Below are positions 20,178 to 37,674 of a stretch of DNA of 64,000 bases, one piece after another. The position numbers were made by a program, and so were the translations under genes. The DNA comes from Desulfatibacillum sp. (GTDB lineage: Bacteria > Desulfobacterota > Desulfobacteria > Desulfobacterales > Desulfatibacillaceae): positions 1-64,000 of the forward strand of contig JAEINP010000028.1 of assembly GCA_016342355.1 (NCBI GenBank), written 5' to 3'. The first letter of the stretch is position 1, and each line of letters opens with the position of its first letter. The notes beneath the pieces are model-generated. The model did no database searches. It had not been told where the DNA came from and was given only the letters and a program-made list of their open reading frames with translations.

Positions 20178-21941
20178 TCAGACGCTGGAAAAAATCCTGC
20201 GCAATTGTCCTTCCGCCGCCAGGTTCTTTTTATCTCCGTAAAGGAACGACCATTTTAGCAGTTTTTCCATAGCCATGGGAAGCTGCCCGAAATGACTTAC
20301 GAACTGAATGGTCCGCCCGTACTGTTCCTCCATTCTGACCCGGTCCTTGACCCCGCAGCCAATGGTGACCAAGTTGATATTTTGCCGACAACAATAATCT
20401 ATGGCGCAGGATACATCCACCCCAAAATTGGATTCCCCGTCCGTTACATGGATGAGGAGCTTGCGCCTTTTATCCTTGGGCATAAAATAGGCGGCAGCCA
20501 TAATGGCCTGGCCCGAGGCTGTCTGTCCGCTGGGGGGCACGGAAAGAAGATTTCTGCCGGAAATAAGACGGGACATCATGCAAATGCCGTCCATTTCAAA
20601 ATAGGCCCAGGCCCCCAGGCGGTTTTGAAAACCGGAAAGAGCTTTGTGCATGTTGCCTACGGTATTTTCCACCATACGCCATTTGCCGCCCCGCATGCTG
20701 CCCGTGGCGTCCAGAAGCAGGGTGACGTTCCAGTCCACAGAAGGAATGGAGGCCGTTTGGCTGAAACATTTGCCGTTCACCGGAGCCCGGTAAAGACGCC
20801 TGCCGTCCACGCGCCCTCCTGTCAGGCCCCTGCTTACAATTTTTTGCCTTTCAGCGTAATTGGAAAAAATAGCACGGAGCCTGCCCACGGTTTTCCGGTC
20901 GATAACCGGGTGGGCCGCCATGTTAAAATCCCAGCGGGAGATGGGCGCCACGTCCGGGTTGTCCGGGCCGACGATGGATCGGATGATGGGGGTGATATCG
21001 GCGGAACTATGGGCCAGGTTGGTTTCAATGTCCTGCACCAAGCTGGAGTCCAGGCCCATTTTTTTCTTTGGCTCAGGGGGCTGGGTTTCGGGCTCTTTTG
21101 ACGCCACGGCGGAATCCGGCAGCCACAGGAGGCGCTTATCCTGGATGGCAAGGCCTTTTACAACCCCTTCCAGTTCTCCCCAGGCATCCTTGTACAGCGC
21201 AACCCGTTCCTGGCAACGATTCACAATGCCGGATTCCCGGTCAGGAACCTTTCCCAGGGACGCCGTGAGGCTTTCCAGGATCTCCAGAGCGGGCTCGTAG
21301 TCTGTTTCCATCAAGTCCTGAGCCAGAGCAGACCATGTGGAAGCCCACCATAAATACACCAAAGCGTCCAGGGTAGGGTTTTCTGTGCGCAGTTTTTCCC
21401 GCGCCTGGATGAGGGCATGGCTCCTGGTCCGAGCAACATAGGCGCCCAGGATCGAACGGTCGGCCAGACGGTCTACATAAATATCCTCGCCGATATGGAC
21501 GATTTTTTGAAAAGCGACCCGGGCCAAGCCTGGCAGGGAATTAAAATCCCGGGCAAGCAATTTCCAGATTCGTTCCGACCATTCCATCTTATGAAAGGCC
21601 TCGTGGACCACCAAGCCCACCACATAGTCCACAGTATGGGGAGGAACCGGGTATTTTCCCATGACCATGGCCGGGTCGATCACAATGGAAGCGGAATCCC
21701 CGTGGGACATACCGGTGTACTCGATCCTGCCCACGTTGGGGCCCATGTGGCCAGCCACCTTGCGCAGGGCGCGGAGAAGATTGGCCAGTTCCGCGGCTTC
21801 GGCGCCGGAGGTGTTTTTGCGCCAGAAGGGGGAAAAGGCCTGCTCTTCCGGATCCGGGCCGATTGCCGGGTCGGTTTCCCGAGTTTGGAGGGCCGGACAG
21901 AGTTGTCCCTGAGGATTAATAGATCTTATATCGGCTTCCAT
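20178..21941 (-). CDS. VWA-domain protein with N-terminal metallopeptidase-like HExxH (BssF-position partner of MoxR)
   Basis: 587 aa. The N-terminal half has V-V-H-E-A-F-H-K (HExxH, His113 and His117), as in DUF2201-type putative metallopeptidases. The C-terminal part is a von Willebrand A domain with a D-A-T-G-S-M MIDAS motif (about residue 425) and H-V-T-D-G-E-S. MoxR ATPase plus VWA protein pairs insert metals or remodel enzymes (NorQ/NorD, CbbQ/CbbO, CobS/CobT). A MoxR-like gene (bssE) and further accessory genes follow bssDCAB in toluene degraders, and here the pair follows the ass genes. It overlaps the MoxR stop by 26 bp. A chaperone role for the glycyl-radical enzyme or mutase is inference. 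Confidence 0.8.
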   Translation of the reverse strand: MEADIRSINPQGQLCPALQTRETDPAIGPDPEEQAFSPFWRKNTSGAEAAELANLLRALRKVAGHMGPNVGRIEYTGMSHGDSASIVIDPAMVMGKYPVPPHTVDYVVGLVVHEAFHKMEWSERIWKLLARDFNSLPGLARVAFQKIVHIGEDIYVDRLADRSILGAYVARTRSHALIQAREKLRTENPTLDALVYLWWASTWSALAQDLMETDYEPALEILESLTASLGKVPDRESGIVNRCQERVALYKDAWGELEGVVKGLAIQDKRLLWLPDSAVASKEPETQPPEPKKKMGLDSSLVQDIETNLAHSSADITPIIRSIVGPDNPDVAPISRWDFNMAAHPVIDRKTVGRLRAIFSNYAERQKIVSRGLTGGRVDGRRLYRAPVNGKCFSQTASIPSVDWNVTLLLDATGSMRGGKWRMVENTVGNMHKALSGFQNRLGAWAYFEMDGICMMSRLISGRNLLSVPPSGQTASGQAIMAAAYFMPKDKRRKLLIHVTDGESNFGVDVSCAIDYCCRQNINLVTIGCGVKDRVRMEEQYGRTIQFVSHFGQLPMAMEKLLKWSFLYGDKKNLAAEGQLRRIFSSV

Positions 21942-22764
21942 TGGACCTTTCTATTGTTTCCATTTCCAGATGCAGGGAAAGGAGCACGGATTCCAGGATA
22001 TCGCGGCTGACCTGAAGACTGTTTGTGAAGGCCTCCCGCACCGTAGCGCCCACAGACACCATTTCGGCGATCATCAGGGAATGGCGGGTGGACACGGTAA
22101 TGGGTTCCTGGGTGTTTTTCCGCAACTGTCTGGCTATGTTGACGATGGTTTGGGCGTCGGCCTGGCTGATGCCTGTTTTCAGGTGCAGAACGCTGGTTTC
22201 CACCTCAGGAACCAGATAATCCATGAGCGTCACATAAAACCGGTCCCGCAAAGCCGCGTCCAGCATTTCCGTCCCCACAAATTCCTCGCCCTCGTTGAGT
22301 GTGGCGAAAAAAACCACTCCCGGAGCCACCTTGATGAGCCCCAGTTCATCGGTCCAGACCTGACGATCCTGGGACAGGACAGAAAACAGCATGTTCAAGG
22401 CTTTGGGATGCTCGGGCCGGTTGATTTCCTCCAGATGGATGACGCATCCGGGAGTCTGGATGGCCTGGGGAAAAAGGAATTGCTGGTAATAGGTTTCGCC
22501 GTCCTTGAGCCTGTGTTCCCCGAATAGCTGCCCTGGCTCGGACAGGATTCCTATTTGAAAGGTCGCCAGGGGGCGGTTGTTTTTCGCGGCAAATTGGCGG
22601 ACCATGGTGGACTTTCCGCAGCCCTGTTTGCCAGCCACCAGCACATTGACCGGGTGGCGTTGGGACAGGGCGTCGATCCTCCCGAGGTTGTTGATTATAT
22701 CTTCAGGCAGGTAAAAATGGTCTTCCTGTCCCGGTATTTCCAGTCCGTGCTCCAAATCCCCCAT
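21916..22764 (-). CDS. MoxR-type AAA+ ATPase (BssE-like)
   Basis: About 282 aa from the ATG at 22764, which has AAGGGAGAAAGA upstream; longer frames to 23025 run into promoter sequence. Walker A is G-K-Q-G-C-G-K-S-T, Walker B H-L-E-E-I-N-R-P, sensor 1 F-A-T-L-N, and the arginine-finger region A-L-R-D-R-F. These are the MoxR/CbbQ/NorQ signatures. Its position downstream of the alkylsuccinate synthase genes, next to a VWA protein, mirrors bssE in benzylsuccinate operons. It probably remodels or assembles the synthase using ATP. Confidence 0.85.
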   Translation of the reverse strand: MGDLEHGLEIPGQEDHFYLPEDIINNLGRIDALSQRHPVNVLVAGKQGCGKSTMVRQFAAKNNRPLATFQIGILSEPGQLFGEHRLKDGETYYQQFLFPQAIQTPGCVIHLEEINRPEHPKALNMLFSVLSQDRQVWTDELGLIKVAPGVVFFATLNEGEEFVGTEMLDAALRDRFYVTLMDYLVPEVETSVLHLKTGISQADAQTIVNIARQLRKNTQEPITVSTRHSLMIAEMVSVGATVREAFTNSLQVSRDILESVLLSLHLEMETIERSNGSRYKIY

Positions 22765-22855
22765 TCTTTCTCCCTTGCAAAGTATTTCCGGCCCGGTAAA
22801 GGCGCCCTGATTTGCTTTTAGCGGCCCCTGACATTGTGGGCCTGGCAGTTGTTTA

Positions 22856-22871
22856 GGCAAGGATGGCGCCA
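22856..22871 (-). promoter_or_regulatory. Sigma-54-like -24/-12 element before the MoxR-VWA operon
   Basis: Minus strand TGGCGC-CATCC-TTGCC: the invariant GG and GC are at the exact spacing and only the A of TGGCAC differs. It is about 92 bp upstream of the MoxR start and about 190-230 bp downstream of the TGACCC/GGGTCA cluster. Confidence 0.6.
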
Positions 22872-23053
22872 GGATGCCGCATCGCGTCAAAATTATTCTA
22901 AGATATTGATTTATATAAGGAGAGTAGCATGGCGCCCGATTTGCGGACATCCCAGTTCCCACCCGGTTTGGGGCATGTATGCCCAGAACCCGGATCGACC
23001 TGACAAACCACACCGTTATAACCATCTGTATTTAAGACGAATGCCATCATTTC

Positions 23054-23119: not shown

Positions 23120-23458
23120 TTAAAAAAAAAGTTCCCGGGAACGCTCCTTGATAAAATCCCCCAGTTTTGAAATGTTCCAGCGTTCGTTCATGCGCCTCAA
23201 TGTGCCGATGAGTTCCATGGCCTTTTTCTGCGCCGCCGGGTCATCGGATTTTTCCATCTCCGATAATTCCTGGCACAACTCGCGCATCCTGACGTCTTCC
23301 TTTTCCAGGGCGGTGGCCCGGGAAAACATGACATGGGCGCCGCATTCAGGGCACAGGCGCATGTCCGACTCTCCGCAGGCAGGGCATCCGTTTTTGCAAA
23401 GAAACCTGAATTCCTGGTGATCGTTGGTAAACCCGCATTGGTGGCACACAAGTTCCAC
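23120..23458 (-). CDS. Small Cys-rich zinc-ribbon protein of the ass locus
   Basis: 112 aa starting at GTG 23458, directly after AAGGAGGAAATC; the ATG at 23497 lacks a ribosome-binding site. Three CxxC pairs (C-H-Q-C, C-P-A-C, C-P-E-C) in the first 45 residues are followed by a charged helical tail. The opening (C-x2-C, then an F-R-F-L block) resembles the AssB proteins, but the WGxS ending is absent. It may be an assembly factor or metal-binding accessory. It lies between assB2 and the MoxR promoter. Confidence 0.6.
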   Translation of the reverse strand: MELVCHQCGFTNDHQEFRFLCKNGCPACGESDMRLCPECGAHVMFSRATALEKEDVRMRELCQELSEMEKSDDPAAQKKAMELIGTLRRMNERWNISKLGDFIKERSRELFF

Positions 23459-23584
23459 GATTTCCTCCTTGGGTCGTATAAGGATGGGCAAGAGCAATGG
23501 GTCACGGGGCTTGGCGCGGCAGGCAAGGGGGAAGGGATTTTCCGGCTGCCTGTTTGGCCTCCCTATGGGACCCGGGTTATTTTG

Positions 23585-23640: not shown

Positions 23641-23862
23641 TTATATGGCGTCTTCAGCCAGTCCTTCAATACCTGCGGACTTGCCCCAGGGGGCGTCGCC
23701 GTCATCCAACCTTTGGGTGGCCTCTCCGGCCAGTTCGTCCACGACAAGCCGCACCTGGCACTGGGGACACTGCCTCAAGGTGAGGGAGGCGTCGATGCGG
23801 ACATTATAAAGATATCTGAAGCTGGGAACAGGAGCCTCGTATGAGCATTCCGTGCATTTCAT
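23641..23862 (-). CDS. assB: Alkylsuccinate synthase small (beta) subunit, copy 2
   Basis: 73 aa with two CxxC pairs (C3-T-E-C6 and C-P-Q-C at about 32-35) and a conserved D-A-P-W-G-K-S ending, nearly identical in plan to the protein at 27004-27228. Size, Cys pairs and position after the catalytic-subunit genes match BssB of benzylsuccinate synthase, which binds a [4Fe-4S] cluster and covers the active site. Here it follows assC rather than assA. AAAGGACC lies 6 nt before ATG. Confidence 0.7.
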   Translation of the reverse strand: MKCTECSYEAPVPSFRYLYNVRIDASLTLRQCPQCQVRLVVDELAGEATQRLDDGDAPWGKSAGIEGLAEDAI

Positions 23863-23875
23863 TGATCGGTCCTTT

Positions 23876-24040
23876 CTATTTTTTCTGGAAGGATTCGCAC
23901 CCGGAAGCGTCGCCGTCGGGGTTCACGGGCCTTGTTTTGTAATAGGCCTGCCTGGGGTCCACAACCCTTAGGACGCAATCCCCTTTGCCCTGTTCGTCTT
24001 CACGGGAAAAAAAACTCTTGCATTCACTGCATGTACTCAT
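23876..24040 (-). CDS. assC: Alkylsuccinate synthase gamma subunit, copy 2 (54 aa)
   Basis: A 54-aa gene too short for common length cut-offs: MSTCSECKSFF, then G-K-G-D-C-V and a final G-C-E-S-F-Q-K-K. The four Cys (4, 7, 22, 48) in the order CxxC, C, C match the HiPIP-like BssC/AssC gamma subunit, which ligates a [4Fe-4S] cluster. AAGGAGACTGACCC precedes ATG. It lies 25 bp after assA2 and 13 bp before assB2. In the other set the gamma gene precedes the alpha gene, so the order differs. Confidence 0.8.
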   Translation of the reverse strand: MSTCSECKSFFSREDEQGKGDCVLRVVDPRQAYYKTRPVNPDGDASGCESFQKK

Positions 24041-24065
24041 GGGTCAGTCTCCTTTCATACTGGCT

Positions 24066-26567
24066 TTACAGACCATGGACCGTACGTTGGATGATGTTGT
24101 CCTGGGTCTTACGGGAAATGTCCACAAAGTGGGCGCTGTAACCCGCCACCCTAACGATCACTTCCTGGTATTTTTCCGGGTCCCGCTGGGCGGCCCGGAG
24201 GGTTTTATCCGAAACCATGTTGAACTGGATGTGGTCCAGACCCAAGTCGGCCCAAGTGCGCATATAGGCGCGCCATAGTTGGTAGCCTTTTTCCCCGGCC
24301 ATTTGGGTGGGGGAAAGGCGTTGATTGAGCAGAAAAGCCCGACCGTCAGATACGTGATCGATTTTTCCGCAGGATTTCAGCACGGCGGTGGGACCTTTTT
24401 TATCCAGGCCGGGGCCGGGGGAAATGCCGCCGTCGTACAGGGCGTCGCCCAGCCTTCTGCCGTTGGGCAGTGCGCCCACGACGGAGGAATAGTGGATATT
24501 GCCGGACACGTTTTGGGGCGCTGCGGGCCAGGTGTTGTTGGAGGTGCAGCGCATGACCCGGCTGTGTATGGCCATGGTGCGGAGGCACCGGAGCATGATG
24601 TCGTCCACATAGTCGTCGTCGTTGCCCCATTTGGGCGCCTTGTTGACGAAGTCCAGGCGCATTTGCTCACAGCCGTCCCAGTTGGATTCCAGGGCATTGA
24701 TCAACTGTTCCATGGTGTATTTTTTGTCGTCAAAGACCAGTTTTTTGACCGCGGCCAGGGAGTCCACGTTTTCCACCCAGGTGAATGCGGTGATCCAGCA
24801 GTTTCCGCGTTCGCCCACCGGGCTGACCGCGTCCAGGCCGGACTCTACGGCCCGTTCGGTAATGCCGGACAGGAAGGGCCTGCCGTAAAATTCTGGGTCC
24901 TTGTACCGGCCCAGGTTGACGGTGCGGACCAGGAGGCTCAGGAGCCATTGCATCTGTCTGGTCCAGGCCTCGAAAAGCTGTTCAAAGTCCGTAAACGTGC
25001 GGGCGTCGCCGGTCAGCGGCCCCATCTGCATGCCCACCACGTGGTCGTAGCCGTTATGGAGGGCGTACTCCACCATCTTGGAACAATTGGCCGTGGCCGA
25101 AGCCATGCGGAAAGGCTGGACCCCGTGTTTGGTGGTGGGGCACGGGCTCATACAGGCCTGGTGCACCCATGTACGAGCCTCCTCGATGGGGTGTCCGTGC
25201 CAGTTCATGCAATTTGCCACCAGAATGGGGTCGTTACGGAAAGAGGGATAACCCAGACCATGGCGGATGCATTCAAAGCATTCCCGCATGACCTCGTCCT
25301 TAACCTTGGGATGCCACCGGAAGGCAAAGGTGGGATTGGACACCCTTATCAGGCGGGACGTCCGTAAAAAGGCCGTGGTGAGGGCGTTGCAAGCGTCGGA
25401 GCCATCGGGCTTTACGCCGCCAATGGTCCACACCCAGGTGCCGGTGATCCCCTGCATGCCTTCCCGTGCCCAGCGGGGACCAAAGCCGCCCACTTCGTAA
25501 ACCCGGATCATGAACTCGCCCACCAGGTCTGTGGCTTCTTCTTCGGTAAGGGTTTTGTCCACGAGGACGTCTTTTTCATAAAAGGGTCCGTGGTAGTAGT
25601 CGGGCCGTGCAGGCCAGGCGCCTTCGCTGGCTTCAAATCGTGACAGGATCTGGACAAAATGGTCCAACTGGAACGATTCCTGGAGGTTCCTGGGAGCCTT
25701 GGCCGGAACCCGTTCGCAGGTCTCGGCCACCCGGAGCAATTCCTCCCGGCGTTTTTCGTCCGTCTCAAAATTCTCGGCCAGGGTCCGCGCCAGCCGGGCA
25801 TAGCGTTTGGCGAAACGGATGGCGGCTTCCAGGACGGTAATCATGGCGTCCCAGTTCTGGATGCGGTCGTAAATTGGCAGGATGTCGGGTCCCGGGGTGC
25901 CGACGCATTTTTCTTCGGCCTCTTCGATATTCTTTTCAATATCGGCAATGATGTCCTCAAAGCCCCGTTCGCCTTTAAGGAAATATTCGTAGTTCTTGCC
26001 CGAGTAACCGTAAGCAGAGGTGGGAGCGCCCCAACCGATTGCCCCGGACAGAAACTTAACCGCATCTTCCGGGTCCAGGATGCGGGCCAACTTGTCCACG
26101 GCGGTTTGGCCTGCCCAGTAATCGTTGATTTCTGCCACTTTGCGGAGGGATTCCTCCTCGGGTTCGGGCATAACGCCCGGCTCGTTATAGAGTTCCTCGT
26201 TCACCATGGACGCGCCGTCCACACGCCAGCTGATTGTGTGGGGCGCACTTCCCCAATAGCCCATGATCTGGGAGTGGTCCGTGATGAAAATAGGAATATT
26301 GTCGAGGACATGGGCCAGGGACTTTGCCCTGCGCATCATGACAGGGTCAAATTTCCAAAATCTCCACATGTCCGTAAACAGTTTGGGACCATCCAGGTCC
26401 ACTTTGATTCCCGGGGCATAATTACCGCCCAAAGCCCCTTTTTTCCACACGGCCTTCCGTAAATAGTCCAGCCTTTTGGAGCGCCTTTTTTCTGCGATCC
26501 ACCACCATTCCTGTTTCTCTTCATGTTCCTGGAAACTCACATCATTCTTTGCGGGTTCTGCACTCAT
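24066..26567 (-). CDS. assA: Alkylsuccinate synthase catalytic (alpha) subunit, copy 2
   Basis: A glycyl-radical enzyme of about 833 aa. The motif R-V-A-G-Y-S-A-H-F-V-D-I-S near the C-terminus supplies the radical glycine, 25 residues from the end. A-C-M-S-P-C-P in the middle (about residue 472 from this start) supplies the catalytic Cys. Length and the W-x-W/Y-A-P-G-I-K N-terminal region match AssA/MasD/BssA, which add a hydrocarbon radical to fumarate. The start at 26567 has GGAAAGACC 5 nt upstream; an ATG 15 nt earlier is itself part of that site. A 436-bp AT-rich gap upstream probably carries its own promoter. It is closely similar to copy 1 (27241-29739) along its whole length. Confidence 0.92.
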   Translation of the reverse strand: MSAEPAKNDVSFQEHEEKQEWWWIAEKRRSKRLDYLRKAVWKKGALGGNYAPGIKVDLDGPKLFTDMWRFWKFDPVMMRRAKSLAHVLDNIPIFITDHSQIMGYWGSAPHTISWRVDGASMVNEELYNEPGVMPEPEEESLRKVAEINDYWAGQTAVDKLARILDPEDAVKFLSGAIGWGAPTSAYGYSGKNYEYFLKGERGFEDIIADIEKNIEEAEEKCVGTPGPDILPIYDRIQNWDAMITVLEAAIRFAKRYARLARTLAENFETDEKRREELLRVAETCERVPAKAPRNLQESFQLDHFVQILSRFEASEGAWPARPDYYHGPFYEKDVLVDKTLTEEEATDLVGEFMIRVYEVGGFGPRWAREGMQGITGTWVWTIGGVKPDGSDACNALTTAFLRTSRLIRVSNPTFAFRWHPKVKDEVMRECFECIRHGLGYPSFRNDPILVANCMNWHGHPIEEARTWVHQACMSPCPTTKHGVQPFRMASATANCSKMVEYALHNGYDHVVGMQMGPLTGDARTFTDFEQLFEAWTRQMQWLLSLLVRTVNLGRYKDPEFYGRPFLSGITERAVESGLDAVSPVGERGNCWITAFTWVENVDSLAAVKKLVFDDKKYTMEQLINALESNWDGCEQMRLDFVNKAPKWGNDDDYVDDIMLRCLRTMAIHSRVMRCTSNNTWPAAPQNVSGNIHYSSVVGALPNGRRLGDALYDGGISPGPGLDKKGPTAVLKSCGKIDHVSDGRAFLLNQRLSPTQMAGEKGYQLWRAYMRTWADLGLDHIQFNMVSDKTLRAAQRDPEKYQEVIVRVAGYSAHFVDISRKTQDNIIQRTVHGL

Positions 26568-27003
26568 GGTCTTTCCTTTCAATCCTCGCGTTTGCTGACA
26601 TTACTTCCGGAAAAACTGACCCCTAACCGCTGATGTCAACATTTTAACACGATCGAACGGCAAATTACCACCCGCAAATGATAAACTTTCAAATGTGTTT
26701 CGTTATTCATTAATTTATATCAAAATTTTAACAAAGACCAACGAAATAGTTAGTCATCAACTGCTCAAAATTACAGGAAAAAATTTTTACGAAAAAATTG
26801 GATCCAAAGTGGCTAAAAACCATAGAGAATAAATCTGTTTATCAAAATGAATTAGACATATGGGTTAGTAAACGCATCTTATGAAGTGAAAAGGCCGCTA
26901 TTATCCTATGGGGACCATCTGAATTTTACCATCGGTAAATATGAGTTAAAGATCTGATAGTTTGGGGAGGCGCCCTATAGGGCGCCTCCCCAAAACTGCT
27001 TTA
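26568..27003. other. AT-rich 436-bp region between the two synthase sets
   Basis: No gene seen. It holds the hairpin after assB1 (26961-26994) and should hold the promoter of the second set. A weak sigma-54-like match (minus strand, 26659-26674, CGGGTGGTAATTTGCC) and one TGACCC half-site (26617-26622) are present but not convincing. Confidence 0.5.
26961..26994. terminator. Perfect 15-bp palindrome after first assB
   Basis: Arms 26961-26975 and 26980-26994 are exact complements around a TATA loop, 9 bp after the assB1 stop. There is no T-tract on either strand. Probably protects or attenuates the long upstream transcript so that downstream genes need their own promoter. Confidence 0.55.
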
Positions 27004-27228
27004 TTACCGGGCTACATCCCGAGCCAGGCCTTCGATGCCTGCAGACTTGCCCCAAGGAGCGTCTCCGTCAGTAACCCGTTGCCGGGCCTCGCCAGCCAGC
27101 TCATCCACGGCCAGCCATGCCTGACACTGGGGGCATTGGCGGAGGGTCATGGAGGCGTCGATGCGCGCGTTATAGAGGTACCGGAAAGAGGAAACACCGG
27201 CTTCGTAGCTGCATTCCGTACATTTCAT
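27004..27228 (-). CDS. assB: Alkylsuccinate synthase small (beta) subunit, copy 1
   Basis: 74 aa; CxxC at residues 3-6 and CPQC at about 32-35, then V-D-E-L-A-G-E-A and G-D-A-P-W-G-K-S-A-G. It has the same plan as copy 2 with a handful of substitutions. AGGAGAAACAGGAT precedes ATG and overlaps the end of assA1, so the two are translationally linked, as in bssA-bssB. Predicted [4Fe-4S]-binding beta subunit. Confidence 0.72.
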   Translation of the reverse strand: MKCTECSYEAGVSSFRYLYNARIDASMTLRQCPQCQAWLAVDELAGEARQRVTDGDAPWGKSAGIEGLARDVAR

Positions 27229-27240
27229 ATCCTGTTTCTC

Positions 27241-29739
27241 CTATATTCCCTGGACCGTTCTTTGGATAATATTGTCCTGGGTTTTGCGGGAAATGTCCAC
27301 AAAGTGGGCGCTGTAACCTGCCACCCGCACAATAACCTCGGAATATTTTTCCGGGTCCTTTTGGGCGGCGCGGAGGGTTTCGTCGGAAACCATATTGAAC
27401 TGGACGTGATCCAGGCCCAGGTCAGCCCAGGTGCGGATATAGGCCTTCCATAACTGATACCCTTTTTCCCCGGCAAGCTGGGTGGGGGAAAGGCGCTGGT
27501 TGAGCAAAAAGGCCCTGCCATCGGCTATATGATCGATTTTTCCGCAGGAGGCCAGGACCGCGGTGGGACCTTTTTTGTCCAGGCCCGGCCCCGGGGAAAT
27601 CCCGCCGTCATAGAGGGCGTCCCCGCATCTGCGTCCGTTGGGAAGAGCGCCCACGATGGAGGCATAATGGATGTTGCCGGAAACATTTTCAGGCAGGATG
27701 GGCCAATTGTTGCCCGAGGGGCATTTCATGACGTGACTGTGCCTGGCGGTGGCCTGGAGGCAGCGGATCATGATGTCGTCCACGTAGTCGTCGTCATTAC
27801 CCCATTTGGGAGCATTGTTCACAAAATCCAGGCGCATTTGCTCATAGCCGTCCCAGTTGGCTTTTAAGGCTGTGATCAACTGTTCCATGGTGTATTTTTT
27901 TTCGTCAAAGACCAGTTTTTTCACTGCGGCCAAAGAGTCGATGTTCTCCACCCAGGTGAATGCGGTAATCCAGCAGTTCCCCCGGTCCCCAACGGGGCTG
28001 ACAACATCCAGGCCGGATTCCACGCTCCGTTGGCTGATGCCGGACAAGAACGGCCTGCCAAAAAACTCGGGATCCTTGTACCGGCCCAGGTTGACGGTCC
28101 TGACCAGGAGGTTGGTAAGCCATTGCATCTGTGTGGTCCAGGCCTGGAAAAGCTGTTCAAAGTCCGTGAACGAGGAGGCTTCGCCGGTCTGGGGTCCCAT
28201 TTGCATGCCCACCACGTGGTCGTAACCGTTATGCAGGGCGTACTCCACCATTTTGGCGCAATTTGCGGTGGCGGAGGCCATACGCATGGGCTGGACCCCA
28301 TTTTTGGTTGTGGGGCAAGGGCTCATACATGCCTGATGGACCCAGGTGCGGGCTTCCTCCAGGGGGTGGCCATGCCAATGCATGGCATTCTGGACAAGCA
28401 GGGGATCGTTCCGCATGGACGGATACCCCAGGCCGTGGCGGATGCACTCAAAGCATTCGCGCATGACCTCGTCCTTGACTTTGGGATGCCACCGGAAGCC
28501 AAAGGTGGGGTTGGACACCCGCACCAGCCTGGCTGCCTGGAGAAAGGCGATGGTGAGGTCGTTGCAGGCGTCGGTGCCGTCCTTGTTCACGCCCCCCAGA
28601 GTCCAGACCCAGGTGCCGGTAATGCCTTGCAAGCCTTCCCTGGCCCAGCGGGGAGCAAAACCGCCCACTTCGTAGGCCCGGATCATAAACTCGCCCACCA
28701 GGTCCAAGGCTTCTTCCTTGGTGAGGGTTTTGTCGATGTTCACGTCTTTGTCATAATAGGGGCCGTGGTAATAGTCAGGCCGTGCTGGCCAAGCCCCTTC
28801 ATGGGCTTCCACCCTGGCGAACATCTGGACAAAATGGTCATATTGAAAGGATTCCTGAAGATTCCTGGGCGATTTGGCAGGGACCTGTTCACAGGTGCGG
28901 GCTAGGCGCAGGAGTTCTTCCTTGCGTTTGTCGTCCGTCTCGAAATTTTCAGCCATTGTCCTGGCCAGCCTGGCATAACGTTTGGCGTGACGCATGGCTG
29001 CTTCCAGGACCAGGATCATGGCGTCCCAATTCTGGAGCCTGTCGTAAATATCGAGGATTTCAGGGCCGGGAACGCCCACGGTTTTTTCCTCGGCCTTTTC
29101 AATGGCCGCCTCGATATCCTCAATGATATCCTCAAAGCCCCGCTTTCCAGCGAACAGGTATTCGTAGTCCTTGCCCGAATATCCGTATGCGGAAGATGGA
29201 GCGCCCCAGCCGATTGCCCCGGAAAGGAACTTTACGGCGTCCTCGGGGTCCAGGATACGGGCCACCTTGTCCACGGCGGTCTGACCAGCCCAGTAGTCAT
29301 TGAGTTTGGCGACTTTTTCAAGGGATTCCTGTTCCGGTTCGGGCATGATGCCCGGTTCGTTGTAGGCTTCCTCGTTGACCATGGAGGCCCCGTCCACACG
29401 CCACATAATGGTGTGGGGCAGGCTTCCGAAATAACCCACGAGTTGGGCGTGGTCGGTAATGAAGATTGTTTTGTTATCCAGGACATGGGCAATGGCTTTG
29501 GCCCTGCGCATCATGATGGGGTCGTATTTCCAAAAGTTCCACATGTCCGTAAAAAGGGTCGCACATTCCAGGTCCAGCTTGATTCCCGGGGCGTAATTGC
29601 CGCCCAAGGCGCCTTTTTTCCAAACAGCCTTTCTCAAGTAATCCAGACGCTTGGAACGCTTCTTTTCAGCGACCCACCACCATTCCTGCTTATTTTCCAG
29701 TTCTTGGACGGACCCGTCCCGTGCTGGTTCTGCTACCAT
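27241..29739 (-). CDS. assA: Alkylsuccinate synthase catalytic (alpha) subunit, copy 1
   Basis: 832 aa. Radical-bearing Gly808 lies in R-V-A-G-Y-S-A-H-F and catalytic Cys471 in A-C-M-S-P-C-P. GGAGGAACGGAA precedes ATG. Gene order activase-gamma-alpha-beta around it reproduces bssDCAB of toluene degraders. The reaction of the family is radical addition of an alkane (usually at C2) across fumarate, in the cytoplasm and under strict anoxia. Differences from copy 2 are scattered, for example I-M-W-R-V-D against I-S-W-R-V-D near residue 115, and may tune the chain-length range. Confidence 0.93.
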   Translation of the reverse strand: MVAEPARDGSVQELENKQEWWWVAEKKRSKRLDYLRKAVWKKGALGGNYAPGIKLDLECATLFTDMWNFWKYDPIMMRRAKAIAHVLDNKTIFITDHAQLVGYFGSLPHTIMWRVDGASMVNEEAYNEPGIMPEPEQESLEKVAKLNDYWAGQTAVDKVARILDPEDAVKFLSGAIGWGAPSSAYGYSGKDYEYLFAGKRGFEDIIEDIEAAIEKAEEKTVGVPGPEILDIYDRLQNWDAMILVLEAAMRHAKRYARLARTMAENFETDDKRKEELLRLARTCEQVPAKSPRNLQESFQYDHFVQMFARVEAHEGAWPARPDYYHGPYYDKDVNIDKTLTKEEALDLVGEFMIRAYEVGGFAPRWAREGLQGITGTWVWTLGGVNKDGTDACNDLTIAFLQAARLVRVSNPTFGFRWHPKVKDEVMRECFECIRHGLGYPSMRNDPLLVQNAMHWHGHPLEEARTWVHQACMSPCPTTKNGVQPMRMASATANCAKMVEYALHNGYDHVVGMQMGPQTGEASSFTDFEQLFQAWTTQMQWLTNLLVRTVNLGRYKDPEFFGRPFLSGISQRSVESGLDVVSPVGDRGNCWITAFTWVENIDSLAAVKKLVFDEKKYTMEQLITALKANWDGYEQMRLDFVNNAPKWGNDDDYVDDIMIRCLQATARHSHVMKCPSGNNWPILPENVSGNIHYASIVGALPNGRRCGDALYDGGISPGPGLDKKGPTAVLASCGKIDHIADGRAFLLNQRLSPTQLAGEKGYQLWKAYIRTWADLGLDHVQFNMVSDETLRAAQKDPEKYSEVIVRVAGYSAHFVDISRKTQDNIIQRTVQGI

Positions 29740-29837
29740 TTCCGTTCCTCCACATTGTAGGACAAACTCCCCCCGGACCTGTCCTGTTTTAATTTATGGG
29801 CCTGGTAAAAACCCTAGCTGTAGCAGTTTGTCAGGCT

Positions 29838-30002
29838 CTACTTTTTTTGAAAGGATTCGCATCCCGACGAGCTGGAATCTTCCCTCACCGGCTTGCTTTG
29901 ATAATAAGCCTGTCTGGGGTCCACCACCCTGCGGACGCAGTCGCCCTGTCCGGGCTCCTCTTCCCGCACAAAAAAACTTTTGCACTCGGCACACGTTGAC
30001 AT
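29838..30002 (-). CDS. assC: Alkylsuccinate synthase gamma subunit, copy 1 (54 aa)
   Basis: A 54-aa gene: MSTCAECKSFF, G-Q-G-D-C-V and a final G-C-E-S-F-Q-K-K. Cys at 4, 7, 22 and 48 match copy 2 exactly. AAGGAGGTGATGTGCAA precedes ATG. Homologous in plan to BssC, a [4Fe-4S] gamma subunit needed for a stable synthase complex. It is directly upstream of assA1 (98 bp). Confidence 0.82.
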   Translation of the reverse strand: MSTCAECKSFFVREEEPGQGDCVRRVVDPRQAYYQSKPVREDSSSSGCESFQKK

Positions 30003-30049: not shown

Positions 30050-30418
30050 TTACTTGACAGCTTTTTCCATCTGGCGTTGCGCCCTTCTATAGGACGGATC
30101 GTTCACTTCGTTGCCATTGGTGTCAATCAACTCCATGCGCACGAAATACTGACACTTGGAGCCGTCGGCGTTGAACAGGACTGTCAGGCTGGCCTCGCCT
30201 TCCATGACGTACACGGCGGGGTCGACCTTGATGTCAGATCCCACCTTGAGCTTTTTGCAATAGCCGCGGCCGTCTGAGGCATAGGCGTTTTCGGAAAAGT
30301 TTTTGCAGAATCCGCATGCTTTTTCCGGGACATTCTCCCTTTCTTCCATTGTGCGGACTTTACCCGCGCCGCCCAACATTCCATCAGCCACTTGTTTCCA
30401 CTGGCTTCTCCTGGACAT
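30050..30418 (-). CDS. Four-Cys small protein, possible fourth synthase subunit (MasB-like)
   Basis: 122 aa. The pattern A-C-G-F-C-K-N-F, G-Y-C-K-K-L-K and K-C-Q-Y-F gives four Cys spaced like a HiPIP-type [4Fe-4S] site, related in pattern to AssC but longer. I use the second of two tandem ATGs because GGAGGTA lies 5 nt before it. A fourth small protein (MasB) is described for the methylalkylsuccinate synthase of strain HxN1; this gene, between the activases and assC, is my candidate for that role. The homology is not verified. Confidence 0.5.
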   Translation of the reverse strand: MSRRSQWKQVADGMLGGAGKVRTMEERENVPEKACGFCKNFSENAYASDGRGYCKKLKVGSDIKVDPAVYVMEGEASLTVLFNADGSKCQYFVRMELIDTNGNEVNDPSYRRAQRQMEKAVK

Positions 30419-30466
30419 CATTACCTCCTTGTCATGACGATGAGGATTTCACCTCGTAGTAAACGG

Positions 30467-31408
30467 TTAACCGCCTATGGTTACTTCGTACACGTGTTTG
30501 AGAAACAACTCGATTACCGGTTCCAGGCGGCTATCGTCATAGCCTTCGCCTGCCGGAAAATCGTAGTCCATTCCAAAGGCCTTGTATTTGCCCCCCGCAT
30601 AGGGATGGTACGGGAGAAGGTCCACGCCTTGGACCGAATCCCCCAGGCTAGCCGCGAATTCGGCGGTGGCGGACCAGTTTTCCTGTGTATCGTTGATGCC
30701 CGGGATAATGGGCACCCGCAGGCGCATGGTGGTTCCCATTTCCGCCATGCGTCTGGCATTATTTAAAATCAAGGCGTTGGTTGCCCCGGTATAGGTTTTG
30801 TGGGGTTCGGGGTTCATATGCTTGATATCCAAAAGCACCAGATCTGTGAAGGGCAGCACCTTGGCGTAATCCTCCCAGGGAGCGTGGCCGCAGGTATCCA
30901 GAGCCGTGTGTATGGGCGAAGCCTGGTCTGTGCCTTGTTTCGCCATGGAAAAAAGGGCGTGGACAAAACCGGGCTGGGCCATGGGTTCGCCTCCGGAGAC
31001 GGTCATGCCTCCCCCGGAATTGCGGAAAAAGGCTTCGTCTGCAAAGACTTCCTTCATGACTTCGGAAGCGGTCATGATGGTTCCCCAGGGCACTAGGCCA
31101 GCATGGGTGCAAACGCGGGCGCACTGTAAACAGTCGGTGCACAGGCCCCGGTCAATAACCGGGTGGTTGTCCCCGTTAAGGGACAGGGCGCCGGTGGCGC
31201 AGACTTCCAGGCACTCACCGCATCCTATGCAATTGGTGACAAAAGGGATGATCTCGGGAAAGCGGCGCCGTCCTTCCGGGTTGTGGCACCATTTGCAATC
31301 CAGGAGGCATCCCTTAAGAAACACGATAGTCCGGAAGCCCGGTCCATCGTTGGTGGACATGCGTTGGATATCGTTGATTACTCCAAATGTTTTTTCAGGG
31401 TCTGTCAA
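30467..31408 (-). CDS. assD: Glycyl-radical activating enzyme, copy 2 of two
   Basis: 313 aa, radical-SAM. G-P-G-F-R-T is followed by K-G-C-L-L-D-C-K-W-C (CxxxCxxC for the SAM cluster). Two inserted ferredoxin-like motifs, C-I-G-C-G-E-C-L-E-V-C and C-T-D-C-L-Q-C-A-R-V-C, are as in BssD-type activases, and then comes S-G-G-E-P. It starts at TTG with GGAG 8 nt upstream, because the preceding activase stop lies 5 bp away and no ATG fits. It abstracts the Gly hydrogen of AssA using SAM. Confidence 0.85.
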   Translation of the reverse strand: MTDPEKTFGVINDIQRMSTNDGPGFRTIVFLKGCLLDCKWCHNPEGRRRFPEIIPFVTNCIGCGECLEVCATGALSLNGDNHPVIDRGLCTDCLQCARVCTHAGLVPWGTIMTASEVMKEVFADEAFFRNSGGGMTVSGGEPMAQPGFVHALFSMAKQGTDQASPIHTALDTCGHAPWEDYAKVLPFTDLVLLDIKHMNPEPHKTYTGATNALILNNARRMAEMGTTMRLRVPIIPGINDTQENWSATAEFAASLGDSVQGVDLLPYHPYAGGKYKAFGMDYDFPAGEGYDDSRLEPVIELFLKHVYEVTIGG

Positions 31409-31413
31409 TCTGA

Positions 31414-32376
31414 TTACTCCGCTTTTTCAAAACCCGAACCGCCAATGGTGGTTTCCAGGCCTTGCATCTGGTAAAATTCCTGGGGAATCTCCAACAGGGA
31501 GGGTTCCATGGCTTCCACCCGGCCAAGGGGCCAGTCCTGGCCCAACCAGCCGTATTTGTCCTGGCACCAGTTGTGATAGGCCAGCAAATCCACCCGGGCG
31601 ACCTTGCCTGGCAGGCTTGCCAGGAATTCCGCGGCTGCCTTGTGTTCCTGGATGGCGTCGTTAAAGCCCGGGACCACGGGGATGCGCACCCAGGTTTCCA
31701 CATTTTTTTGGGTGAGCCGGACAAGGTTTTCCTTGATGAGGGTGTTGTCCACCCCGGTCCATTGCTTGTGCTTTTCAGGGTCCGTATGCTTGAGATCGAA
31801 AAGCACGATGTCTGTGTATTCCAGGAGTTCTTCCAAAACCTCCCAAGCGCAGTACCCGTTGGTATCGAGACAGGTATGGAGCCCCCGCGCCTTGGCCCCG
31901 GCCAGGAGTTTTTTTGCAAAAACCGGATGGGCTGTGGGTTCTCCACCGGAAAGGGTCATACCGCCCCCGGAGTTATCGTAAAAAGGCCGGTCCGATTCCA
32001 CCTCGTCCAGGATTTCTTCCACGGTGAGGGGTTTGCCCACTATTTCCAGGGCGTTGTAGACGCAAGCGCCCACGCATTGCATGGAATCATTGCAACGGGA
32101 AAGGTCGATCTTGTAGTAATCCGACCCCTCGGCCTGAGCCAGTACAGGGTCGATGGGCGGTTGAATTGCCCCTGTGGGGCAGGCTTCCATGCAGGCTCCG
32201 CATTGGACGCAAAGTCTTTTCTTCCAATATACTTGAGGTTTGGCGCCTATGGTTTCAGGATTATGACACCAGGCGCATTTAAGGGGACAGCCCTTTAAAA
32301 AAACGTTGGTGCGGAATCCCGGTCCGTCATTCACTGCAAAACGCTGAATTTCCGTAATCAAACAGGTATCGGCCAT
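31414..32376 (-). CDS. assD: Glycyl-radical activating enzyme, copy 1 of two
   Basis: 320 aa. SAM-cluster motif K-G-C-P-L-K-C-A-W-C, first ferredoxin motif C-V-Q-C-G-A-C-M-E-A-C-P, and a second site with the irregular spacing C-N-D-S-M-Q-C-V-G-A-C, differing from the regular second site of the neighbouring activase. S-G-G-E-P follows. AGGAGAGATAG precedes ATG and contains the stop of the upstream small gene, so translation is coupled. With two alpha subunits present, each activase may serve one, or both may be interchangeable. Confidence 0.85.
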   Translation of the reverse strand: MADTCLITEIQRFAVNDGPGFRTNVFLKGCPLKCAWCHNPETIGAKPQVYWKKRLCVQCGACMEACPTGAIQPPIDPVLAQAEGSDYYKIDLSRCNDSMQCVGACVYNALEIVGKPLTVEEILDEVESDRPFYDNSGGGMTLSGGEPTAHPVFAKKLLAGAKARGLHTCLDTNGYCAWEVLEELLEYTDIVLFDLKHTDPEKHKQWTGVDNTLIKENLVRLTQKNVETWVRIPVVPGFNDAIQEHKAAAEFLASLPGKVARVDLLAYHNWCQDKYGWLGQDWPLGRVEAMEPSLLEIPQEFYQMQGLETTIGGSGFEKAE

Positions 32377-32622
32377 CTATCTCTCCTGTTCCGTGTTTTT
32401 TGGGGGCCGTTGGCGGGTAAATACTTTGCCCCGCAACTTGGATGTACCCCAAACCGTGTCGCCGCAATAGGCCTCGGGCTCTTCCATTTCTTCGCAATAA
32501 ACCGCCGCATGGCATTTGGGGCATTGCCTGAAGCATTCCACGCCAGCCGAATCCGCATGGTTGAGGAAACGGAAATCCACCTTATCGCCTTGGTGCCCGC
32601 AATTATTGCATAGTAGATCCAT
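32377..32622 (-). CDS. Third BssB/AssB-like small protein
   Basis: 81 aa. Two CxxC pairs (C-N-N-C, C-P-K-C) with V-D-F-R-F-L between them, R-Q-C-P-K-C like the R-Q-C-P-Q-C of AssB, and D-T-V-W-G-T-S matching D-A-P-W-G-K-S of AssB. It is therefore a diverged AssB paralogue rather than a generic zinc ribbon. It is placed before the activases, away from the other two. It may be an alternative beta subunit or an assembly form. Confidence 0.6.
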   Translation of the reverse strand: MDLLCNNCGHQGDKVDFRFLNHADSAGVECFRQCPKCHAAVYCEEMEEPEAYCGDTVWGTSKLRGKVFTRQRPPKNTEQER

Positions 32623-32641: not shown

Positions 32642-33976
32642 CTAAAGAGTTGCTGCAAAGTCCTGCATGGCCGCCGATTCCAACCCATCAATACCCTCTG
32701 CAAGACGTTGGGCCTTTTCCAGGCCAATGATAGCGCCGGCCAGGTCCAGGAATTTGGCCCTGACGCGTTCGTGTTTTGCCTCCAAAGAAGGAATTTGCTG
32801 GAGGATGTCGGAAAAGCCCTCGTAGTCCCGGCCCTTGGCCCTGATGAAAACACGGGACTCCAATCCGGCCATGGACTCGTCCTTAACCAGTTCAATTTTT
32901 TCCATCAGATTTCTTACCTGGGGATCATTCACCATTGCATCGGTAAAAGCGGCCATGCCCGTAACCTCCCTGAGCAGGGCGTTGGCCACGCAATAGACCA
33001 CGGAAAACTTGCCCTCCGTCCCTGTTTTGGGGTTGGAATTGGCTGCGGCCTGCATAGTGACCTCGGAGGAATGGACCCGAATTTTTTCGATGTCCGCAAG
33101 GTCCAGACTGTTATCCTCCTTCACCTGTCTGGCTGCTTCCAGAGGCGAATGGGTGGCATGGCATGAGGCATGGTATTTCTGGCTGAGGTTCACCACATCC
33201 CATCCCAGGCCCAGCATGGAAAGAATGTCCTCGTTCACCTTGCCTTTGAGGGCTTCGAAAAAGCCCTGGGGGCCTTCCAACGCGTCTTCCGCGCCCGTGA
33301 ATCCCTCCCGGGCCAGCATGGCGGCCATGAGTCCGGACTGACTGGCCCGGCCTGCGTGAAAGGGTTTGCACATGGTGCCGAAGCTCCGCTTTAGGCCTGA
33401 AGCCTGGGTGGCGCCAATGCCAAGAGCCCAGACGGTTTGTTCCGGGTTCAAACCCAGCAGACGGGCGCACCCGGCTGCAGAGGCAATATGCCCCAAAGTG
33501 GATGTGCCGTGCCAACCGGCCAGATAGTGATCCAGTCCGGCGCAGGCGCCGATGGTGCCTCCGATCTGGACGGCCATGATATAGGCGTCCAGGAATTCCC
33601 TGCCGCTTTTGTTTTCCTTTTCCGCCAGGGCCAACAGGGCGGGAAAAAGGGTGACGGAAGGGTGTCCCAAAAAAGAAACCAGAGTGTCGTCATAGTCCAA
33701 TGCGTGGGAAGCGGCGCCGTTGATAAGAGCTGCCTGACCCAGGGATTTTTTGCTGCCAAAACCGATGATGGTTGCCTGGGGATTGCCACCTTCCTGATCG
33801 GCATAGGCCATGAGCTTCGCCACAAGGGGGTCGTCCTTGCCGCCGTAGGTTACGGCGAGCCAGTCCATAAAAGCTACTTTGGCATGCTCAAGCATATCTT
33901 CCGGGATGGAGGAAGCAGGGGTTTGGGAGCAAAAATCGGCCAGTAGTCGTGTCATTCCTTTTGTCGTGCCTGTCAT
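32642..33976 (-). CDS. MmgE/PrpD family protein
   Basis: 444 aa from ATG 33976, whose ATGA overlaps the MeaB stop, with AAGGAGACGAC upstream. Family blocks visible: N-G-A-A-S-H-A-L-D-Y-D-D, G-W-H-G-T-S-T-L-G-H, K-P-F-H-A-G-R-A-S-Q and Y-H-A-S-C-H-A-T-H. The family includes 2-methylcitrate dehydratase and cis-aconitate decarboxylase. In this operon a (de)hydratase or decarboxylase step on a substituted succinate or alkylmalonate is possible. Propionyl-CoA disposal is an alternative, though no methylcitrate synthase or lyase is nearby. Confidence 0.8.
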   Translation of the reverse strand: MTGTTKGMTRLLADFCSQTPASSIPEDMLEHAKVAFMDWLAVTYGGKDDPLVAKLMAYADQEGGNPQATIIGFGSKKSLGQAALINGAASHALDYDDTLVSFLGHPSVTLFPALLALAEKENKSGREFLDAYIMAVQIGGTIGACAGLDHYLAGWHGTSTLGHIASAAGCARLLGLNPEQTVWALGIGATQASGLKRSFGTMCKPFHAGRASQSGLMAAMLAREGFTGAEDALEGPQGFFEALKGKVNEDILSMLGLGWDVVNLSQKYHASCHATHSPLEAARQVKEDNSLDLADIEKIRVHSSEVTMQAAANSNPKTGTEGKFSVVYCVANALLREVTGMAAFTDAMVNDPQVRNLMEKIELVKDESMAGLESRVFIRAKGRDYEGFSDILQQIPSLEAKHERVRAKFLDLAGAIIGLEKAQRLAEGIDGLESAAMQDFAATL

Positions 33977-34989
33977 GTCGTCTCCTTGGACCTGGAAGCC
34001 TCCCGGATCAGGGGAAGCAGGGAGTCCACCACGGAATAGGGGTCGGTTTGTTTTTCCAGAATTCCTTCCACCGCCTTGTCCAGGTCTCCGGTGCGTTCCC
34101 AATTTTCGCGCAGGTAATCCAGGATTTCGGTTTCCACGAGGGTGAGGATTTCTTCTTTCACTCGCTGGGCCTGCCAGGAATCAGCGTTCCTGCCGGATTC
34201 AAAGCCCTGGACCAGGGCGTCCACCAGTTCCGTGATGCCCTGGTTGGCAAGAGCCGAGGTTTTGATGACCGGGGGTTGAGGTCTGCCGCCATTATCAGAG
34301 ATATCCAGCATGCCTCCGATGTCCGCCACCACCTCGTCCGCGCCTTCCCGGTCCGCCTTGTTGACCACGTAGAGGTCGGCGATTTCCATAATTCCGGCTT
34401 TCAGAGCCTGGATGCCGTCGCCCTGGCCCGGAACGCAAACCACCATGACCAGATCGGCGGCCTTGACCACTTCCACTTCGTCCTGGCCCACCCCCACGGT
34501 TTCGATGATGACCACGTCCTTGCCAAAGGCGTCCAGAATCCTGGCGATGTCACGGGCGCCCTGGCACAGGCCGCCTAAGGCGCCCCGGGTGGCCATGGAG
34601 CGGATGAAGATTTCCGGCAGGGTAACCACATCCCGCATGCGCAGCCTGTCACCCAGAAGCGCTCCCCCGGAAAAAGGAGAGGAGGGATCCACAGCAATGA
34701 TCCCCACGGTGTAGCCGCGGGCGACAAAATCCCTGGCAACCGCATTGGTCAGGGTGCTTTTGCCTGCCCCGGGACTGCCGGTGATGCCCACGATTTTGGC
34801 CTTCCCCCCCAGGGGGTATAGGCTTTTCATGGCATCTTTCCAGCCGGGCTCCCGGTTTTCCACCAGGGTGATGATGCGGGCAAGGGAGCGCACGTTTCCC
34901 TTTTTCACACCATCCAGCAATGTTTCCCACGATATTGACACTATAGTTTCTACCCTTGCGCCCTTATACATCAGGCGCCTAAAAAACAC
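33973..34989 (-). CDS. meaB: MeaB/ArgK-type G3E GTPase (mutase chaperone)
   Basis: About 338 aa. Walker A G-S-P-G-A-G-K-S-T, D-P-S-S-P-F-S-G-G-A, E-T-V-G-V-G-Q and N-K-A-D identify the MeaB family, which loads and protects B12-dependent acyl-CoA mutases. It starts 8 bp after the mutase large-subunit stop; an ATG at 34971 with AGGCG upstream is an equally good start. It overlaps the PrpD start as ATGA. Together with the two mutase genes it forms a complete module. Confidence 0.9.
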   Translation of the reverse strand: MFFRRLMYKGARVETIVSISWETLLDGVKKGNVRSLARIITLVENREPGWKDAMKSLYPLGGKAKIVGITGSPGAGKSTLTNAVARDFVARGYTVGIIAVDPSSPFSGGALLGDRLRMRDVVTLPEIFIRSMATRGALGGLCQGARDIARILDAFGKDVVIIETVGVGQDEVEVVKAADLVMVVCVPGQGDGIQALKAGIMEIADLYVVNKADREGADEVVADIGGMLDISDNGGRPQPPVIKTSALANQGITELVDALVQGFESGRNADSWQAQRVKEEILTLVETEILDYLRENWERTGDLDKAVEGILEKQTDPYSVVDSLLPLIREASRSKETT

Positions 34990-37011: not shown

Positions 37012-37410
37012 TCAGGCATTTACCTGTTCGGAAATAAACTGGGCCACCTGGGAAACGGATGTGCCTGCCGTAAAGACCCCGGCCACGCCCATTTCCTTCA
37101 GGGAAGCCACATCCTGCTCCGGGACGACTCCGCCCACCACCAGCAGGATATCCTCCGCATCGTTGCTTTTTAGTTGATCCACCACTTTTTTGGTGAGGCT
37201 CAGGTGAGCGCCTGAAAGGATGGAAAGGCCAATCACATCCACATCTTCCTGCAAAGCGGCGCTCACAATCTGCTCCGGGCTTTGACGCAGGCCCGTATAG
37301 ATGACCTCAAAACCCGCATCCCGCAGGCCATAGGCAATGATTCTTGCGCCTCGCTCATGCCCGTCCAGGCCTGGTTTGGCAATGAGTACGCGTATTTTTT
37401 TATTATTCAT
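37012..37410 (-). CDS. B12-dependent mutase, small cobalamin-binding subunit
   Basis: 132 aa from ATG 37410, with GGAGGGAATCC upstream. K-P-G-L-D-G-H-E-R-G carries the D-x-H-x-x-G motif whose His coordinates cobalt. S-I-L-S-G-A-H and V-G-G-V-V-P complete the B12-binding Rossmann fold. It pairs with the large subunit 240 bp downstream. It is the first gene after the sigma-54-like promoter and probably the start of the long ass operon. Confidence 0.9.
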   Translation of the reverse strand: MNNKKIRVLIAKPGLDGHERGARIIAYGLRDAGFEVIYTGLRQSPEQIVSAALQEDVDVIGLSILSGAHLSLTKKVVDQLKSNDAEDILLVVGGVVPEQDVASLKEMGVAGVFTAGTSVSQVAQFISEQVNA

Positions 37411-37456
37411 GGATTCCCTCCGGTTGGTATTGCCGATGCTGGCACACTGTGTCATG

Positions 37457-37472
37457 AGCAAGAAGGGCGCCA
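37457..37472 (-). promoter_or_regulatory. Sigma-54-like -24/-12 promoter of the mutase/ass operon
   Basis: Minus strand TGGCGC-CCTTC-TTGCT: full -12 match, and the -24 element differs from TGGCAC only by G for A. Spacing is exact. It lies 47 bp upstream of the mutase small-subunit ATG and directly downstream of a gene for a sigma-54-dependent activator. Confidence 0.68.
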
Positions 37473-37674
37473 GGGGTGGAAAAATAAATATAACCATCTG
37501 AAATAAAGCAATATTACATATTAATCCTTATAATGGAAAACCGGCCCGGGATGCGTCAAGTGGGGCAGAGCCGCCCAGGCCCGGGGATGACGCGGCGTGT
37601 CAGCGCCAATATCATACAGACAAGTCCTTGTAATAACTTGGAAATCACTATACGGTCCACCAAAAGAGACAGAA

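Follow-up and report, generated by a model that had tools for sequence, protein, structure and literature searches.

The window analysed here is a stretch of 64,000 nucleotides from Desulfatibacillum sp. (assembly GCA_016342355.1, contig JAEINP010000028.1, positions 1 to 64,000), a bacterium closely related to sulfate reducers that are known to degrade alkanes. The gene assA is the usual marker for anaerobic alkane degradation, and the window harbors two copies, assA1 and assA2, as neighbors in one locus, whose genes are all encoded by the minus strand. Transcription leads from a sigma-54-dependent regulator through the small and large subunits of a mutase, a MeaB-type protein, an MmgE/PrpD family protein, a δ-like protein (DeltaL) and the activases Act2 and Act1 to a MasB-type gene and the first synthase set, γ2-AssA2-δ2 (30002-27004). 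A gap of 436 bp separates the end of δ2 from the start of AssA1, which opens the second set, AssA1-γ1-δ1 (26567-23641), and this is followed by genes for a zinc-ribbon protein (ZnR), a MoxR-type ATPase, a VWA-domain protein and CoA-ligase and hydratase-type proteins. We propose, with a probability of about 0.62, that this is one alkane-activation cluster in which two paralogous fumarate-adding glycyl radical enzymes share a β subunit and the fumarate side of AssA1 has been rebuilt.

AssA1 (24066..26567, 833 amino acids from its ATG) and AssA2 (27241..29739, 832 amino acids) are 83% identical to each other, and both contain the motifs ACMSPCP and RVAGYS without any stop codon. The α subunits match the PF02901 and PF01228 domains and have the catalytic C477. 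AssA1 scores 1483.9 bits against MasD, the α subunit of methylalkylsuccinate synthase (MASS), and 510 bits against the α subunit of benzylsuccinate synthase (BSS). Both γ genes (AssC2, 29838..30002; AssC1, 23876..24040) match PF08201, with E values of 4e-21 and 2e-21, and AssC2 also matches chain 9o8u_C. In the excerpt of the cryo-electron microscopy report on an alkane synthase (PMC12358834), MasB is named β and MasE is named δ. The 73-amino-acid protein of the AssA1 set (23641..23862) matches MasE, which is chain 9o8u_D (E 2e-27), and its counterpart in the AssA2 set (27004..27228) is 83.6% identical to it and falls in the same hidden Markov model (HMM) group. The only MasB homologue of the locus lies at 30050..30421 (E 3e-31 against 9o8u_B, which has 120 amino acids). 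The locus thus encodes two α, two γ, two δ and one β.

The original prediction had described two complete synthase sets within 23641-30002, in the order C-A-B and then A-C-B in its own lettering. The layout, the coordinates, the gene order, the full-length α subunits with intact motifs and the two γ genes were all borne out. What it had read as two β genes are of the δ (MasE) type, and the single MasB gene lies just outside that span. As two α subunits stand beside a single MasB gene, the locus does not encode two complete synthases, and one β protein may be common to both α. Genome-wide, MasB genes number two for three AssA here, two for two in D. alkenivorans and three for three in a sister-family genome (G002), the three genomes searched. 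The third AssA set of this genome (contig C34, L010 and L129) has the order γ-α-β-δ and its own MasB, and its α shares 67% identity with AssA1 and 70% with AssA2.

With regard to the enzyme class, the sequence features of ASS/MASS are present: the α is nearer to MASSα, the glycyl radical domain has its Cys and Gly, γ, δ and β genes are found, and two activases are encoded nearby. The Glu at the fumarate contact, which is characteristic of MASS without defining it, is present in AssA2 and not in AssA1. As for BSS, its α is not the nearest relative, and the β-type gene matches MasB, a BSS-type β not having been searched for separately. NCBIfam gave no match for the small subunits, MasB, DeltaL or ZnR. 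Two further glycyl radical enzymes lie on opposite strands of another contig (C33, L002 and L003); they are about 34-35% identical to AssA2 and stay under every listed NCBIfam cut-off.

The two α subunits differ at a residue that touches fumarate in the solved structure 9o8u. According to the same structure excerpt, Glu690 of MASS contacts fumarate and is equivalent to Gln707 of BSS (PMC12358834). This position (690 of P0001; 685 from the ATG) is Gln in the AssA1 of both Desulfatibacillum species. Of 85 aligned rows, 79 have Glu here and six have Gln: the AssA1 of each of the two species and four distant rows of about 49% identity. A search of 389 genomes from the class, many lacking AssA and most with neither motif, gave the exact Gln motif in two, both of them Desulfatibacillum; the Glu motif occurs in 27 genomes, at 39 sites. 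Where seven outgroup rows are invariant, the AssA1 stem has 13 changes and the AssA2 stem three (chi-square 6.25). The loop carrying residue 690 holds four of the 13, at 680-690, and another, M491F, adjoins Arg492. Residues 678-692 hold 4 of the 13 changes against 11 of 564 eligible sites (P 5e-5, an optimistic value as this interval was picked post hoc). At sites that are at least 95% conserved in the clade, with the six distant rows excluded, AssA1 has the changes V412I, G682N, L688A and E690Q and AssA2 has none; two of these sites are conserved in 77 of 77 rows.

The dN/dS against D. alkenivorans is about 0.06 for AssA1 and 0.05 for AssA2, and such low ratios between species indicate that both copies are maintained under purifying selection. 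The altered fumarate-binding pocket of AssA1 suggests that this enzyme has a second job rather than being a spare copy. The specialisation that the original prediction had put forward is supported by the sequence, by the 13 stem changes versus 3, E690Q and the loop; a different substrate range or condition would be the presumed outcome.

An alternative explanation is that both enzymes catalyze the same reaction for dosage or redundancy and that AssA1 has drifted without functional change. It agrees with the identity of the main catalytic and channel residues and with the purifying selection on both copies, and Gln690, which is natural in BSS (PMC12358834, in the excerpt) and in four distant rows, may be neutral. 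However, drift does not readily account for changes that are asymmetric, with four of them clustered in the residue-690 loop, or for four AssA1 changes at sites that are otherwise at least 95% conserved, two of them in every row. We therefore regard simple redundancy as rather unlikely.

The best 80 of 93 relatives, which represent 79 distinct loci and often lie on short contigs, served to trace the origin of the tandem. The gene-order survey covered 84 stretches, many of them short or showing an α without small subunits, and the α tree had 88 rows, that is, 90 distinct nearly full-length sequences minus six removed by thinning plus four partial ones. D. alkenivorans DSM 16219 has two α on different contigs, well inside both, of which one (L013) is 92% identical to AssA1 and the other (L014) 92% to AssA2; another genome of the genus (G001) has the same two α proteins. 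In the tree, the four Desulfatibacillum α form one clade (SH-like approximate likelihood-ratio test 96), in which each window copy groups with its own ortholog (100 and 99), and the stem of AssA1 (0.12) is longer than that of AssA2 (0.052). As each window α pairs with its own D. alkenivorans ortholog, the duplication occurred before the species split.

The phylogeny and pairwise identities that had been advised as checks (83% for α, 83.6% for δ) thus uphold the duplication suggested by the original prediction, but not its recent date. Nor is the gene shuffling local to this genome, because the order α-γ-δ, seen in only 2 of the 84 stretches, is shared by the window and L013. The prediction had also stated that the loci of a known two-synthase alkane degrader are separate, which is true of D. 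alkenivorans DSM 16219.

The tandem itself is probably ancestral, D. alkenivorans then having a duplicated and reciprocally reduced locus. Over the 22.5 kb compared for each, L013 lacks the part from the regulator to MmgE and the γ-A2-δ set, and L014 lacks DeltaL, Act1 and the A1 set. Each of these loci has its own MasB, and in L013 assA1 directly follows it. The flanking genes common to the window, L013 and L014 are about equidistant, and the AssA1-AssA2 distance is about twice the species distance. In four sister-family genomes (G002, G003, G005, G007) a second α also stands after δ2; it is of a third type, like the copy on contig C34, and not AssA1, with 67-71% identity to AssA2 where nearly full length and 59% over the partial copy of G007. 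The complete sister-genus stretches (L127, L020, L019) have the same order ahead of the second α as the window. In 11 of the 84 stretches, one strand carries two or more α. Other tandem arrays include three α in L032, two each in L035 and L046, and two on one strand together with weaker relatives in L090.

It can be argued instead that the tandem is derived, two separate loci like those of D. alkenivorans having been fused in this lineage. In the Act2 of both the window and L014, one Cys of the second ferredoxin-like cluster (C-N-x-S-M-Q-C) has been lost; L013 and the remaining relatives shown still have it. NPD is nearer to L014 as well, and the two loci may predate the split. On the other hand, the window order up to δ2 is that of the sister genera (L019, L020, L127), the two D. 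alkenivorans loci are missing different parts of this order, and the shared flanking genes differ to about the same extent among the three copies, with a much greater distance between AssA1 and AssA2. A fusion in this lineage is therefore doubtful.

A recent local duplication with shuffling within this genome would fit the adjacent copies and the still 83.6% identical δ pair, but it is very improbable: the α tree contradicts it, each α is 92% identical to its D. alkenivorans ortholog against 83% to its neighbor, and the A-C-B order already exists in D. alkenivorans. Even less probable is an assembly artefact that juxtaposed two loci in this 142-contig draft, which we reject because the two α share only 80% nucleotide identity with a longest common exact run of 32 bp, the stem between them is single-copy, the same slot holds a second α in four sister-family genomes and D. 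alkenivorans has separate orthologs. An artefact or an inactivated Cys or Gly motif had been named as what would overturn the prediction; the former is unlikely, and the motifs are intact in the assembled sequence.

The 436-bp gap contains two features that bear on expression. A 34-bp inverted repeat with a 15-bp stem (26961..26994) directly follows δ2; with up to 3 mismatches allowed, its core occurs only once in the genome. The repeat has no T run on the coding strand and may act as a terminator or a processing stem. The approximately 220 bp ahead of assA1 (26568..26787, minus strand) are kept between the window and L013, which suggests that assA1 has its own promoter. No Rfam match reached the gathering score in 20000-41000.

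Several observations weigh against our reading of the cluster or against an ancestral tandem, besides the post hoc choice of the loop interval. A scan for σ54-type promoter patterns gave 3 matches, below the chance expectation of 6.7, and one for σ70-type patterns gave 10 against an expectation of 7.9, close to chance. The catalytic Cys, Gly, Arg492, W185, Y194, T598 and F600 (MASS numbers) are identical in both α, so their substrate range may not differ. The Act2 Cys loss is common to the window and L014 only, which speaks against an ancestral tandem. In 40-codon segments starting at codons 151, 481, 511, 601 and 721, paralogs of at least one species are as similar as, or more similar than, at least one ortholog comparison, and this holds for both species at 721. 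Partial gene conversion between the α copies is a possible cause; it could make the duplication appear younger than it is, and dS is near saturation in the α comparisons. Moreover, the comparison includes only two Desulfatibacillum species.

In the scheme that we favor, an α gene with its γ and δ would have been duplicated on the Desulfatibacillum stem, before the D. alkenivorans split. AssA2 would have kept the ancestral active site, and AssA1 would be a paralog that was kept but remodelled on its fumarate side (Glu690 to Gln and the preceding loop), probably under its own promoter. Each α would have its own γ and δ, and both would draw on one MasB-type β and two upstream activases. An activase would install the glycyl radical, δ would close the radical domain, and β would seal the alkane channel. 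The Cys thiyl radical would then abstract a hydrogen from the alkane, the alkyl radical would add to fumarate, and the product would be processed by the co-encoded mutase and ligase. In outline, and in the roles given to β and δ, this mechanism is the one that the MASS and BSS literature proposes. The scheme is built on the gene content, homology, the single β gene, orthology, purifying selection and the AssA1-specific substitutions; the co-transcription of the genes, the sharing of β, the activity of both enzymes and a substrate range or condition that differs for AssA1 are presumed from them.

Further genes accompany the synthase sets. The sigma-54-dependent regulator with PAS domains (37689..39635; PF00158, PAS, HTH_8) has homologues near AssA in many loci. 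The B12-binding subunit (37012..37497; PF02310) and large subunit (34997..36772; PF01642, TIGR00641) of the mutase may rearrange methylalkylsuccinyl-CoA, next to a MeaB-type mutase chaperone GTPase (33973..34989; PF03308) and the MmgE/PrpD family protein (32642..34102; PF03972, PF19305). On the other side of the synthase genes are the MoxR-type AAA ATPase (21916..23025; PF07728) and the VWA-domain protein (20178..21941; PF00092).

Both activases match TIGR02494. Act2 (31414..32376) is a radical SAM glycyl radical activase of the common type, and Act1 (30467..31408) is a second, anciently diverged one; they are 44% identical and stand in separate clades of the activase tree. The Act1 clade has 13 rows and reaches the Actinomycetota (four loci). 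This old clade rules out the idea of one activase per synthase arising from the same duplication. Act1 is also present where its strand carries a single AssA (L030, L041, L042).

DeltaL (32377..32622, 81 amino acids) resembles MasE (9o8u_D, E 2.4e-6) and keeps the four metal-binding Cys of δ, but it forms its own HMM group, and alignments show a different C-terminal tail, WG-S-LRG--F. Foldseek placed 9o8u_D first, with a weak E value of 0.039 on a model of mean predicted local distance difference test score 71 and predicted template modelling score 0.44. Pfam searches gave nothing over the cut-off for the first DeltaL member and weak zinc-ribbon matches for other members. With a DeltaL cut of 50 bits (L085 matched at 46 bits), the 37 loci with an activase comprise 13 with both Act1 and DeltaL, none with Act1 alone, one with DeltaL alone (L074) and 23 with neither; L090 has DeltaL and no activase in its stretch. 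On the tree, where 32 of the 37 loci could be placed (L070, L071, L074, L082 and L085 could not), three independent pairs on supported branches all agree (sign test 0.25). Because the changes are few, the link between Act1 and DeltaL is suggestive only. In MASS, the δ tail touches the radical domain, and δ occupies the place where the activase must bind; the excerpt of the structure report leaves open the role of δ and its possible cooperation with the activase (PMC12358834). We propose that DeltaL acts in activation, in concert with Act1.

ZnR (23120..23497), a zinc-ribbon protein, sits between the synthase genes and MoxR. With TGA read through, 29 distinct ZnR rows were collected, and 19 of them have an in-frame UGA at one column (for example L064 at 13259-13606, L030, L041 and L023), where ten, the window included, have Cys; no UGA occurs elsewhere. 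The usual motif is C-K-x-G-[U/C]-P-A-C-G-E. When the other cluster genes were read through in this way as a control, none had more than 3 homologues with an in-frame TGA (MoxR, 3 of 29). A hairpin of at least 7 Watson-Crick pairs follows the UGA in 9 of 19 UGA rows versus 0 of 10 Cys rows (P 0.011), and one of at least 6 pairs in 12 of 19 versus 2 of 10 (P 0.050), both values uncorrected for kinship. The folding energies of the stretch after the UGA were unremarkable. The Cys-type ZnR of L013 (13652 onward) keeps a 6-pair hairpin at the place of its UGA relatives, which may be the remnant of a former UGA.

A selenocysteine tRNA (tRNA-Sec) of at least 70 bits was found in 22 of 28 genomes tested, this genome included, with no separation between UGA-row genomes (12 of 16; lacking in those of L083, L044, L042 and L022) and Cys-row genomes (5 of 7). 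All 14 control genomes match tRNA-Sec at the loose cut and five pass the family cut, the weaker hits being presumably other tRNAs. The N-terminal part of ZnR also scores 20-46 bits, where listed, against the DeltaL profile. ZnR is a probable selenoprotein family. We found no report of a selenocysteine protein in ass clusters in the titles and abstract beginnings of the open-licence PubMed Central literature. If ZnR is a selenoprotein, many ass clusters will contain a copy that standard gene calling has truncated at this codon.

A more far-reaching version of our proposal is tentative, and we think it less likely to hold than to fail. It would have AssA1 neofunctionalised with a BSS-like fumarate clamp, so that an α swap on the same β switches the activation chemistry. 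The cluster would also encode an activation and redox module of δ-family proteins: the two δ, DeltaL tied to the second activase, and ZnR, in 19 of 29 rows a probable selenoprotein with a U-P-A-C motif. This locus bears on the question of why several AssA persist in alkane degraders: it offers a natural pair in one cluster, with one β and a difference at the residue that touches fumarate in 9o8u, and so opens the question to direct testing. Moreover, the second activase with the δ-like protein (13 of 13 loci) and the likely selenoprotein are new handles on the role of δ.

A tandem two-synthase ass cluster with a shared β was likewise not found in the literature within the above scope. D. alkenivorans strain AK-01 carries separate synthase loci. 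The loci of D. alkenivorans DSM 16219 have both α as orthologs (92% each) and arrange the assA1 set as A-C-B too, but they lie on separate contigs with a MasB each, whereas the window has a tandem with one MasB. The sister genera (G002, G003, G005, G007) also have an AssA2-type α followed by a second α, with the same upstream order where complete; however, their second α is of the third type and that of the window is AssA1. Desulfoglaeba alkanexedens ALDC likewise has two synthases in one alkane degrader, but its two ass clusters are separate and lie on opposite strands, and their α differ by at most 3.1% (PMC7180275), while the tandem of the window is 17% diverged. In 'Ca. Alkanivorans nitratireducens', three AssA are unequally expressed and about 91 and 97% alike, hence closer to one another than the pair described here, and the excerpt of that report makes no mention of a tandem with a shared β (PMC10811727). 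BSS resembles AssA1 in the Gln at the fumarate contact (Gln707; PMC12358834, in the excerpt) and shares the γ family PF08201, but AssA1 is far nearer to MasD (1484 vs 510 bits) and the β-type gene matches MasB. Another close system is MASS of strain HxN1 (MasBCDE, PDB 9o8u): clear homologues of all four subunit types occur here, and the catalytic Cys, Gly, Arg492, Trp185, Tyr194, Thr598 and Phe600 are kept in both α. Unlike MASS, the window has two α-γ-δ sets with one β, a Gln for Glu690 in AssA1, two activases and an extra δ-like protein.

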